Of a stretch of DNA of 64,000 nt, positions 37,057 to 46,895 are shown piece by piece. The notes below the pieces were generated by a model. The model was not told where the DNA came from. It did not search any database and saw nothing but the letters and a program-made list of their open reading frames with translations. Position numbers and translations under genes: made by a program. The DNA lies in IMG/VR virus record IMGVR_UViG_3300037278_000142, positions 62,001-126,000 of that record; one strand, given 5' to 3'. The stretch is from a virus. Each line of letters opens with the position of its first letter. Position 1 is the first letter of the stretch.

Positions 37057-37368
37057 TTACTTATACTTCGGGAAGAATCCAAAGTTCTTGGGGTACTCTT
37101 CTCTCGGTATGAAAACGATTGCAACTTCTTGTCCGTTCAACGTGGACTCGGTGATGACTTGATGCTTCGGCACTTCCTTCGCCTTCTCGAACTCCTCGTC
37201 GGTTACCTTGCACACAACCTTGGCGAAGGACGTTTGCAGCCACTTGACCATATCCGGGTCGGTGGGGAAGTTCAGGTAGAGCGACAGAGGCCCGTGTGCT
37301 GCGGCCACGATGGCGTTACCTACCGGGATGGAGCCCTTCACCAAAACGTACATCTTCAATTTCATGCT
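37057..37368 (-). CDS. Peptidyl-tRNA hydrolase II-like protein
   Basis: 103 residues from the ATG at 37368 (CGAGG upstream); a longer frame would run through tRNA genes. MYVLVKGSIPVGNAIVAAAHG matches the start of PTH2 proteins (substrate loop and AQ.aHa-type helix, with Val in place of Gln), then FAKVVCKVTDEEFEKA and GQEVAIVFIP complete the fold. PTH2 recycles stalled peptidyl-tRNA. It lies inside the tRNA cluster. Confidence 0.65.
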   Translation of the reverse strand, partial: SMKLKMYVLVKGSIPVGNAIVAAAHGPLSLYLNFPTDPDMVKWLQTSFAKVVCKVTDEEFEKAKEVPKHQVITESTLNGQEVAIVFIPREEYPKNFGFFPKYK

Positions 37369-42436: not shown

Positions 42437-42510
42437 TGGTGCTCCCGGCAGGGTTCGAACCCGCGTCTCTTAGGTTAGAGCTAAGGGCACAGCCGCTATA
42501 CCACGGGAGC
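42437..42510 (-). tRNA. Amber suppressor tRNA, anticodon CTA
   Basis: Acceptor GCTCCCG/CGGGAGC, D-stem GGTA/TGCC, perfect 5-bp anticodon stem CTTAG/CTAAG with loop CTCTAAC (anticodon CTA at 42476-42478), T-arm GCGGG with TTCGAAC, discriminator A, encoded CCA. It reads UAG. A single base change from a CTC (Glu) anticodon would produce it; the charged amino acid cannot be read from sequence. A TAG sits in codon 3 of the PTH2 gene at 45128. Confidence 0.85.
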
Positions 42511-44510: not shown

Positions 44511-44788
44511 ATGCCCTCGCCTTCTGTGTTGGTCTGAAACGGGTAGGTTGCGTCCGTGCCCATGAGAGCACCATTAGCGTCTTCGCAGGAGACCCACTTC
44601 GCCCACGTGGATGGGAGACTGTAGTCCTCAGGATTAGCGTCGGGGTAGCGTTTGAGGAGCTTGGCAATTGCCTCGTTCCGCACAACCACCTTAGACGGGC
44701 GGTTGCCTTCGTGAGACCATACCTTGTAGCCCCACGAGTAGTAGATGGGCAGGTTGCAGTGCATACAAGCGAGGTTAGGCTGCGACAT
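44507..44788 (-). CDS. Hypothetical protein
   Basis: 93 residues from the ATG at 44788 (GGAGG, 6 nt). ACMHCNLPIYYSWG gives a Cys pair; the remainder is mixed. Overlaps the PTH2 gene end by 14 nt. Confidence 0.5.
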   Translation of the reverse strand: MSQPNLACMHCNLPIYYSWGYKVWSHEGNRPSKVVVRNEAIAKLLKRYPDANPEDYSLPSTWAKWVSCEDANGALMGTDATYPFQTNTEGEGI

Positions 44789-45128
44789 CGGAGACCTCCA
44801 GAGTTTCCTGAGGCGTCCAAAGGCGGTAGACTCCCATGGCTCCACGAAGCTTCTTATTGGTAATGGGGTACGTCGCGACTGCGGTCAGGCCGAGGTCGAA
44901 GTCAGGCTCATAGAAAGCCTCACATTCAATGCCATAACGCTGGAGTCGTGCGATGACGGCTTCAAGAGCGTCCTTGTCAGGAACTCCGATGAGCACGAGC
45001 GAAGGGGTTTCGCTGCACCCGTCAAGCCGGGATGCCATCTCGTAGGTGGCGTGGTTAGACTGAACAATAGTTTGGGCAAGGCTGAGGTCCTGCCGGACGA
45101 AGAGGTAGTAGTGATTGACCTAGTGCAT
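44775..45128 (-). CDS. Peptidyl-tRNA hydrolase II-like protein with in-frame amber codon 3
   Basis: The conserved frame begins HYYLFVRQDLSLAQTIVQSN, the PTH2 start (RQDL, Q..., HA), and continues PSLVLIGVPDKDAL to GVYRLW. No ATG, GTG or TTG lies between the amber codon at 45120-45122 and this conserved part. Upstream, in frame, are ATG at 45128, CAC and TAG, with AGGAGA 7 nt before the ATG and a promoter at 45149. A CUA tRNA at 42437 could read the TAG. Otherwise only an internal ATG at 45038, which loses the domain start, remains. Product 117 residues if suppressed. PTH2 frees peptides from stalled tRNAs. Confidence 0.75.
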
Positions 45129-45148
45129 ATGTATTCTCCTAATTGGTT

Positions 45149-45177
45149 ATTGTAGCGTGAAACTTCTATTTATGCAA
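45149..45177 (-). promoter_or_regulatory. Sigma70-like promoter
   Basis: TTGCAT (45172-45177), 17 nt, TACAAT (45149-45154), followed about 20 nt later by AGGAGA and the ATG of the amber-containing PTH2 gene. Confidence 0.6.
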
Positions 45178-45194
45178 CCAAATTCTTTGCATCT

Positions 45195-46085
45195 TCTATG
45201 ACCTTGTACCGTGATTCCGACCCAATGCTCACAGACCACGGGGCTGTCTCTGCCGGTGTGATGCTGCGGCTCGAAAAGGAGGTTCCCGAGCGATGTAATA
45301 TTTGTTCTCATTACGAGAACAATTGTACTTAATATGACAACACAGCGCTGGGGCCGGCTTTTTGAATGCAAAGGGCTGTGTCGCCCAGTTTGATTCCTCT
45401 CGTTCGACCGGGCCATTGGCGTGGCGCAAACCCCCTGCGATTGAGATTCCGGGCAGTAAAAGAACCGGCGTTATATTTGGTTTGAGGAGAACCAAAACCC
45501 GCCCGGAATGTGGTGCGAAGCCGCAAGGTTTCCCTTGTCCCTGAACACCGTTGTCCATGGCCGGTGCCAGTGCAGCGTCTATGCTGCTCGTTCGCATAAC
45601 TTGTGCTGGCGGCTGTCGGACTTGACCCTTATTCCAATCTTCCCTGTCGGGCTCCATGGGGGCGGTTCCTATCATGACCAGCAACTTCGGCTGTGGACGT
45701 TCGATACAGGCTCCCGGACGCGACCGGGACGACCGTTGGCAAACCCTTACGTCCGCTACCCACAGCTAAACATTGGAGCAAAGTGAATTTCTTCACTGAG
45801 GAGTCCCTGCCTCCGCCGACTAATGGCGGGTGTGTCAACTATCACCGCCGAACATTGGGCACCATGCTCTCGCACAGTAGGACTCTTACCCGCCGCTTAT
45901 AAACTCCCAAGGCTATGTGCAACATTGACAGTCCTACGCAAGAGCGGTAGGCTAACGATTCCGCCGACTTACTGCCAGACTAGCATCAAAGCCGAAGTGA
46001 ACTCCGGGTATATGAATGCTAGACCACGGCTTGTAGGTTACCCTACTGGTCATTGCCTTTCGTGCGGGTCAGTCTCCCGCTCATG
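45195..46085 (-). ncRNA. Large structured noncoding RNA (about 0.9 kb)
   Basis: This stretch has a promoter at 46091-46121 and no convincing protein gene. It has many paired elements (minus strand, high to low): GCGGG/CCCGC at 46064-46080; GTAGG-GTAA-CCTAC at 46033; CTAGCAT/ATGCTAG (46016 with 45980); a 15-bp helix with a 3-nt bulge (45930-45944 with 45867-45884); AGTGAA-GAAA-TTCACT at 45782; CTGTGG/CCACAG with GGACG/CGTCC (45760 with 45691); CCCGG/CCGGG at 45713; CAAGG-GAAA-CCTTG at 45524; ATTCCGGGC/GCCCGGAAT (45501 with 45446) enclosing TTTGGTT/AACCAAA; and an 8-bp palindrome at 45302. Several GNRA loops. Size and tRNA/tmRNA context recall the giant phage RNAs GOLLD and ROOL, without identity being shown. 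Confidence 0.7.
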
Positions 46086-46090
46086 TACAT

Positions 46091-46121
46091 AGTATACTGT
46101 AGTCTTTCCGTTTCTGAACAA
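46091..46121 (-). promoter_or_regulatory. Phage promoter for the large RNA (TTGTTC-19-TATACT)
   Basis: TTGTTC (46116-46121) with AGAAACG, 19 nt spacer, TATACT (46091-46096). Transcription would start near 46085-46084. Confidence 0.7.
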
Positions 46122-46128
46122 CTATTTT

Positions 46129-46221
46129 TCACAATCCCACTTTTTTCTTTCGTGGATACTTCCGTCCTATGGTTCTTGTGCCGGGAGGTCTTGCCACGGG
46201 CACTTCATCAAGCTGAGCCAT
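46129..46221 (-). CDS. Small basic peptide on a leaderless transcript
   Basis: 30 codons; the ATG lies 6 nt after a TATACT -10, as in the gene at 27877, so it may be a leaderless message. Peptide ends in a Lys/Arg cluster (RKYPRKKKVG). Short but the promoter-ATG geometry is repeated. Confidence 0.45.
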   Translation of the reverse strand: MAQLDEVPVARPPGTRTIGRKYPRKKKVGL

Positions 46222-46227
46222 ACCCTT

Positions 46228-46258
46228 AGTATACCAGCCGGTACACGTTTCTGGACAA
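46228..46258 (-). promoter_or_regulatory. Phage promoter (TTGTCC-19-TATACT), leaderless start
   Basis: TTGTCC (46253-46258), AGAAACG, 19 nt spacer, TATACT (46228-46233), ATG after 6 nt. Confidence 0.65.
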
Positions 46259-46259
46259 C

Positions 46260-46478
46260 CTATTTAGTTGTATTTTTGTAGGATGCCGGGGAGCAGTCCG
46301 CGTGGAAGCACCAGCCGGTGAGACAGGCCCCGTAAACAATGGGGATGAGAGCCCACAGCTTATGGTCGAACACACCGATTAACAAGCCAGCCACGAGGAC
46401 TAACTCTCCGAAAAGCATAAGAAACATGACAGTTACGCCGAGGGGCGAAAGCGGGGCTTGGTCGTCAGGGATGTCCAT
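46260..46478 (-). CDS. Two-helix membrane protein
   Basis: 72 residues; AAGGAGACCGT before the ATG. Helices VTVMFLMLFGELVLVAGLLIG and LWALIPIVYGACLTGWCF with two Cys near the end. Directly downstream of the tmRNA locus. Function unknown. Confidence 0.5.
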   Translation of the reverse strand: MDIPDDQAPLSPLGVTVMFLMLFGELVLVAGLLIGVFDHKLWALIPIVYGACLTGWCFHADCSPASYKNTTK

Positions 46479-46499
46479 ACGGTCTCCTTAAATTCGGTA

Positions 46500-46522
46500 G
46501 GGGTGAGCCAGTGACTCACCCC
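46500..46522 (-). terminator. Hairpin after tmRNA coding piece
   Basis: GGGGTGAG-7-CTCACCCC, 8 bp, with only a weak T run. It follows the 3' end of the tmRNA coding piece and may be a processing or termination hairpin. Confidence 0.4.
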
Positions 46523-46539
46523 ATCCTCAGATACCTATT

Positions 46540-46895
46540 GATTTACAAGGGAGGTACCCAACCTCGCCTTACGCTGGGTTAAGCAGCGATGGGGAGTGCA
46601 ACATTGCTGTTGGCAGTTATATTGAACACTTTCCCCGTATAACGAACAGGTTTGTGCGAAAGTAAACGAGTTGTAGACCGCATCTCCAGCGTATCCCGTC
46701 GAAGCCGTGACATCCCCACAATTCAGCACACTATTCAGTGACCATCCCTCGTTCTAGCCCGAGATTACAAATGGCCCTTACTCCTATGTGCTGAATGGTG
46801 GAGATGGTGGGAGTCGAACCCACGTCCGAAACATCCTTTGACCGCCTTCATCCCCTTGCGGGGAAAACAACCATGTACTAATAGTACCACGAAGT
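46540..46895 (-). ncRNA. ssrA: Permuted two-piece tmRNA
   Basis: The acceptor piece comes first (46796 to about 46890): it ends GGACGTGGG-TTCGACT-CCCACC with CATCTCC and encoded ACCA at 46796. After a 78-nt gap, the coding piece starts at 46717 with GGGGATG, which pairs with CATCTCC (one G-U), then TCACGGCTTCGACGGGA, the conserved tmRNA 5' region. The tag frame at 46579-46614 reads ANSNVALPIAA followed by TAA, with a GCC resume codon. This order (3' half before 5' half) is that of circularly permuted tmRNAs, whose transcript is cut into two RNAs. It would tag stalled peptides and release ribosomes. Confidence 0.88.

Follow-up and report, generated by a model that had tools for sequence, protein, structure and literature searches.

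How can a phage gene be expressed when its reading frame meets a TAG stop at the third codon, and is a tRNA with the anticodon CUA encoded in the same genome the key to it? These questions are raised by a peptidyl-tRNA hydrolase (PTH2) gene within the window, that is, the whole 64,000-nucleotide stretch of DNA analyzed here (positions 62001-126000 of the 183,684-bp virus record IMGVR_UViG_3300037278_000142). No similar phage DNA was found in the INPHARED collection.

The PTH2 gene of the window and its leader

The gene is encoded on the minus strand. Its Shine-Dalgarno sequence, AGGAGA (45135..45140), lies 6 nt 5' of the ATG and is followed by the motif ATG CAC TAG (45120..45128; ATG at 45128-45126, TAG at 45122-45120), hereafter the gate, which is conserved in relatives. 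The stop is followed by G, and the frame goes on with GTC AAT CAC TAC TAC CTC. Past the gate it encodes 114 aa (44775..45119), beginning with VNHYYLFVRQDL and terminated by a TAA at 44777-44775. No ATG, GTG or TTG is present between the TAG and the conserved PTH2 domain, and the first in-frame ATG past the stop is residue 28, already within the domain (ORF 44775..45038). The preliminary description of this locus was therefore right about the in-frame TAG, the lack of another start before the domain and the well-spaced AGGAGA. It had also placed a promoter ahead of the gene, which was not borne out: promoter-like sites were no more frequent than in shuffled sequences and none preceded PTH2.

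The product was confirmed as PTH2 by its modelled fold. Specifically, the AF2 model of the protein encoded after the TAG reached a pLDDT of 89.7, the best 13 matches of this model in a PDB fold search were all Pth2 chains (TM 0.60-0.75), and the family profile matched Pth2 chains in the PDB (E about 6e-5). A Pfam search gave no match for the window protein, which did not reach the PF01981 cut-off, and placed the homologue from phage XacN1 above it (25.3 bits). Hydrolase activity is predicted from the fold and from the homologues. A second PTH2-like ORF of about 102 aa (MKLKMYVLVKGS) is located on the minus strand at 37057-37365; it is ungated and its Pfam PTH2 match is weak and below the cut-off. 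Between PTH2 and the next gene, about 1.1 kb (45150-46260) contains no convincing ORF and has no Rfam match.

Two mechanisms that would carry ribosomes past the stop by other means were rejected. Structure-driven programmed readthrough was discarded because the window lacks a stable RNA element 3' of the gate stop (folding energy versus shuffles z = +1.1, calculated for the window only), and a ribosomal hop between the two CAC codons of the window gene (2 and 6) because the repeat is missing in relatives.

Conservation of the gate among PTH2 relatives

Two IMG/VR contigs contain this gene, TAG included, and on a third contig a homologue with 71% identity starts with ATG ACC TAG and is accompanied by two CUA tRNAs. 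Gates were also found in GenBank genomes, namely those of Salmonella phage Arash (ATG CTG TAG), Acinetobacter phage ME3 (ATG ACT TAG), Serratia phage BF (ATG ACG CAC TAG) and Pectobacterium phage CBB (ATG GCA CAA TAG), and the PTH2 genes of Xanthomonas phage XbC2 and of the 595-kb LR756511 are likewise gated. In several of the gated GenBank phage records the PTH2 start is placed too late or the gene is omitted altogether. In XacN1 and RAS14 an HD-domain protein is fused to PTH2, which is C-terminal, and the TAG is the third codon of the entire fused gene (ATG AAG TAG in XacN1). Since the gate lies at codon 3-4 even in these fusions, the position of the stop is tied to the start codon rather than to the fold.

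A total of 120 PTH2 loci were grouped into 85 clusters at 80% identity, each counted through one representative and with kinship between clusters not corrected for. Among them, 57 carried an early TAG (at codons 2-9, mostly 3-4), one an early TGA and four an internal TAG only; the remaining 23 had no recognised gate, a class that contains fragments and cases missed by the gate rule. This rule takes in leaders without a Shine-Dalgarno sequence (Bacteroidota-like). Three of the 57 had a second, internal TAG as well. Double gates were observed in L054, L055 and L063, where the internal TAG follows about 33-35 codons after the early one, and the PTH2 genes of L059, L062 and L064 have the internal TAG only. 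No convincing gate was found in DLP_5, a close relative of Summit. PHROG families 34073 and 26054, with profile lengths of 77 and 46, are apparently pieces of PTH2 and of the HD protein split at the in-frame TAG.

A gene with a stop at its third codon would normally be taken as dead, and a point mutation or sequencing error had been named at the outset as the rival explanation. This was refuted by the relatives: the stop is seen at the same place in other contigs, in the 71%-identical homologue and in dozens of divergent homologues sequenced in separate projects, with the conserved protein after it; among these are the complete isolate genomes of ME3, Arash, BF, CBB, XacN1 and RAS14. The chance that the TAG is an artefact or a sign of decay is accordingly negligible. 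Relatives with a sense codon in place of the TAG and no suppressor tRNA were looked for as well, and the opposite was seen. On the basis of these comparisons, the putative TAG lock recurs in dozens of unrelated large phages, usually together with a matching tRNA.

A second gated gene, coding for an HD-domain protein

A scan for gated genes (Shine-Dalgarno, ATG, few codons, stop, long frame) revealed a second recurrent TAG-gated gene, which codes for the HD-domain protein phrog_14850, the partner fused to PTH2 in XacN1 and RAS14. Its best PDB match was the HD region of the A-adding 'Poly A polymerase' 3wfp (E=1e-3), and this match to a tRNA A-adding enzyme suggests that the HD protein may act on tRNA ends. 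The 104 HD loci formed 69 clusters, of which 53 had an early TAG, 3 an early TGA, 3 an internal TAG only and 10 no gate. BF and CBB relatives carry an internal TAG roughly 45 codons into the HD gene, whose annotation is split into two ORFs. As a rule, unfused PTH2 and HD genes are gated separately. At least one gate was present in 78 of 78 loci with both genes, and both were gated in 61 of the 78. An HD partner was not detected in the window's own genome. The preliminary description had envisaged a small regulatory circuit; a circuit is supported by the sequence comparison, and with the HD gene gated too, it would be larger and more general than proposed.

In three bacterial-bin contigs (L327, L329 and L331) the HD gene is likewise gated, and a CUA tRNA lies shortly downstream of it. 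A third gene type, of 157 aa and starting with ATG ACA TAG, lies directly ahead of three CUA tRNAs in another contig (L024:11960-12442).

Suppressor tRNAs, tmRNA and stop usage

The presumed reader of the gate in the window is a tRNA gene with the anticodon CUA and an encoded CCA end (42437..42510, minus strand), identified by ARAGORN, by the Rfam tRNA model (52.1 bits) and from the sequence itself. As previously described, it has a clean anticodon loop and lies 2.3 kb downstream of PTH2; the loop reads CUCUAAC and the strand is that of PTH2. It is the only CUA tRNA among the 16 tRNAs of the record. Its 'Pyl' label derives from the anticodon alone and the standard Rfam tRNA model fits, so that we regard it as a canonical tRNA with a CUA anticodon and a predicted amber suppressor. 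An early stop and its predicted cognate suppressor tRNA are thus found in the same genome.

The genetic code of this phage is not reassigned. The 84 non-overlapping ORFs of at least 200 aa in the record of the window end in TAA (40), TGA (27) and TAG (17, about 20%), and since TAG still terminates 17 of them, a global code change of the type of code-15 recoded phages was rejected. A phage release factor was likewise rejected as a general part of the circuit, because a protein of this family occurred in only 2 of 10 records, and none in G000. A permuted tmRNA (46488..46888, minus strand; ARAGORN and Rfam tmRNA_permuted, 85 bits), with the tag ANSNVALPIAA, is encoded upstream of PTH2 in the same direction. 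A tmRNA is close to PTH2 in several relatives too, and this ribosome-rescue neighbour is possibly linked in function to the gated PTH2.

Among the 57 TAG-gated PTH2 clusters, a CUA tRNA was detected within the fetched locus for 43. All 90 CUA tRNAs are on the PTH2 strand, at a median distance of 1.1 kb, as are nearly all tRNAs of these loci. Discriminator bases of the suppressor tRNAs differ from phage to phage. Three TGA-gated lineages carry UCA tRNAs instead, and no CUA tRNA was detected in any of them: L073/L136 has two UCA tRNAs and TGA gates in both PTH2 and HD, L153 has two and, in a contig with 49 tRNAs, no CUA, and L155 has one. This covariation between stop and anticodon was significant (p=2e-4). 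LR756500, examined late, is gated and has a CUA tRNA, and no suppressor was found among the tRNAs scanned in the ungated RaK2, PX29 and S-CBWM1. The earlier suggestion that PTH2 production depends on the suppressor is supported by this comparison, in which most PTH2 homologues keep the TAG and cognate suppressors are usually encoded nearby on the same strand.

Exceptions were also observed. In 14 of the 57 TAG-gated clusters the CUA tRNA was absent from the fetched locus, which is not the full record, and four of these (RAS14, XacN1, LR756511 and L041) have one elsewhere in the record. No suppressor was found in 180 and 332 kb of the TAG-gated L025 (G003) and L060 (G009), respectively, and only a UCA tRNA, with no CUA tRNA, was detected in the contig of the TAG-gated L142 (G022). 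Such cases may reflect incomplete contigs, missed tRNAs, or a suppressor supplied by the host or another phage. Conversely, some PTH2 genes adjoining a CUA tRNA are ungated. Ochre (UUA) anticodon tRNAs were found in L038 (L038:8755-8830), whose PTH2 is ungated, and in RAS14 (L216:2428-2502). In Agrobacterium phage Atu_ph07, for which a UCA suppressor has been published, neither the PTH2 nor the HD profile had a match.

Position and sequence context of the gate

Applied to control ORFs from the same loci, the gate rule fired in 45 of 1185 cases (3.8%; TAA 21, TGA 15, TAG 9), and an early TAA gate was found in none of the 85 PTH2 and 69 HD clusters. The gate pattern is therefore far from chance, and the controls show no preference for TAG. 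Of the 114 gated clusters, 57 have the stop at codon 3 and 29 have it at codon 4, while the internal gates lie at codons 30-108. The base 3' of the gate stop was A in 73, G in 34 and C in 7 of these 114 clusters, and never T, whereas a T is found in that place for 45 of 142 terminal TAGs (p=1e-13). Suppression of an amber codon is favoured by a following purine, and termination by a following U; the A/G-rich and T-free context of the gate agrees with this effect. TAG-gated genes themselves end in TAG in only 2 of 110 cases.

These patterns bear on three alternatives. The first is that a start codon 3' of the stop is in use (e.g., an ATT or GTT right after the TAG), leaving the TAG outside the gene. 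The codon after the gate is indeed often ATT, GTT or AAC, and ATT does occur, if rarely, as a start codon. By contrast, GTT, GTC and AAC are not start codons. Moreover, the Shine-Dalgarno spacing suits the upstream ATG, TGA gates pair with UCA tRNAs, and internal gates are far from any start, all of which makes this alternative highly improbable.

The second is that the suppressor merely renders in-frame TAGs tolerable, and that they drift in with no regulatory role, much as suppressor tRNAs permit the spread of TAG in code-15 phages. Drift would hardly gather the TAGs at codons 3-4 of two gene families in genomes where TAG otherwise keeps its role as a stop, and the T-free context together with conservation across divergent homologues argues for selection on the gate. 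We therefore deem neutral recoding very unlikely.

The third rests on the shortness of the leader. AUG-NNN-UAG would constitute a minigene of two or three codons shedding short peptidyl-tRNAs, the substrate of PTH2, which would thereby feed back on its own translation. Minigenes of such length cause peptidyl-tRNA drop-off, and the stop at codon 3-4 in 86 of 114 gated clusters fits them. Against it, the HD gene shares the gate and is not a hydrolase of that kind, internal gates lie much further downstream and codon 2 is variable. As the sole explanation, autoregulation of this type is unlikely; a minigene effect could act in addition to suppression, not in its place.

A proposed suppressor-gated switch for rescue enzymes

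We propose that the codon-3 TAG serves as a conserved gate on translation, through which a dedicated suppressor tRNA controls the expression of a rescue module, a reading to which we assign a probability of roughly 0.85. The gate, the type of stop, its position and its cognate tRNA are strongly supported by the comparison of homologues, and from them we infer readthrough at the gate, insertion of a residue there, and the timing and reason of the gating. Ribosomes would initiate at the ATG, reach the UAG after one further sense codon, and normally terminate. Only once the phage CUA tRNA has been transcribed, processed and charged would the UAG be decoded as an amino acid and PTH2 be made, and in many relatives the HD protein would be under its own gate of the same kind. 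With the tRNA and the gated genes on one strand and usually about 1 kb apart, this arrangement would amount to a coherent feed-forward (AND) switch, in which protein is produced when both the mRNA and a working suppressor tRNA are present. The gated proteins resemble enzymes of tRNA and ribosome rescue. The switch may keep them silent until the tRNA supply of the phage is functional, and their level would then track the strength of suppression relative to release factor 1.

The same gate could instead serve as a homeostatic sensor of readthrough, its UAG reporting how abundant the suppressor tRNA is relative to release factor 1. Whenever suppression harms termination at UAG, PTH2 and HD would increase and remove dropped peptidyl-tRNAs as well as damaged tRNAs, which would be feedback and not a readiness check. 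The effectors are indeed rescue-type enzymes, tmRNAs lie near PTH2 in the window and in several relatives, suppression should cause readthrough given that TAG ends 17 of 84 long ORFs, and the logic is akin to the autoregulation of prfB. On the other hand, no sign was seen of another need of the phage for the suppressor, and the sensor and the readiness switch are not separable by sequence alone. We regard the sensor as possible, with the balance somewhat against it.

More broadly, many large-phage lineages probably share a suppressor-tRNA regulon, in which a stop at codon 3-4 of the rescue genes for PTH2 and HD would be opened only by the charged suppressor of the phage itself; the tRNA would be there mainly for this switch, and natural circuits of this kind would not have been described before.

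Relation to known systems and implications

The proposed switch resembles the autoregulation of bacterial prfB (RF2), which proceeds through a frameshift at an early UGA, in that a translation factor is controlled by an early in-frame stop that also reports the efficiency of termination. Unlike prfB, the phage gate involves no frameshift and would be opened by a dedicated suppressor tRNA. With code-15 phages (crAss-like, Lak and others) it shares a phage CUA suppressor tRNA for in-frame TAG; TAG is reassigned in many genes there, whereas here it still serves as a stop, and its decoding would be confined to one site, in one or two genes. Functionally, the closest parallel is a synthetic suppressor-tRNA feed-forward 'leak dampener' in E. 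coli (Ho et al. 2020, PMC7969014), in which a gene with a nonsense codon is on only with a co-expressed suppressor tRNA, and for which amber and opal both work. That device was engineered, whereas the present one would be a natural phage circuit with the stop at codon 3-4 of two families.

A jumbo-phage review (PMC7824862) recognises PTH2 and ties it to the recycling of cloven tRNAs and to ribosome rescue; its passages on PTH2 that were retrieved, unlike the present analysis, mention neither a stop-codon gate nor a link to suppressors. The authors of XacN1 (PMC5852040) and Summit (PMC9022506) found no target for the suppressor tRNAs of these phages, which, like the phage of the window, have a CUA tRNA without reassignment of TAG; in departure from the published account, the HD-PTH2 gene of XacN1 is now seen to be gated. 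A search of the full-text literature, with preprints and most subscription papers outside its scope, returned no published description of such a gate. Since nonsense suppression by phage tRNAs is already known, what appears to be new is the gene-specific natural switch.

The gate accounts for public phage records in which PTH2 or HD is truncated or lacks an annotation. It also offers a specific and testable target for the suppressor tRNAs of non-recoding phages such as XacN1 and Summit, and one that is present in the genomes of isolates. If the proposed reading is true, nonsense suppression, as a gene-specific switch so far known mainly from the laboratory, would be put to that use in nature as well.
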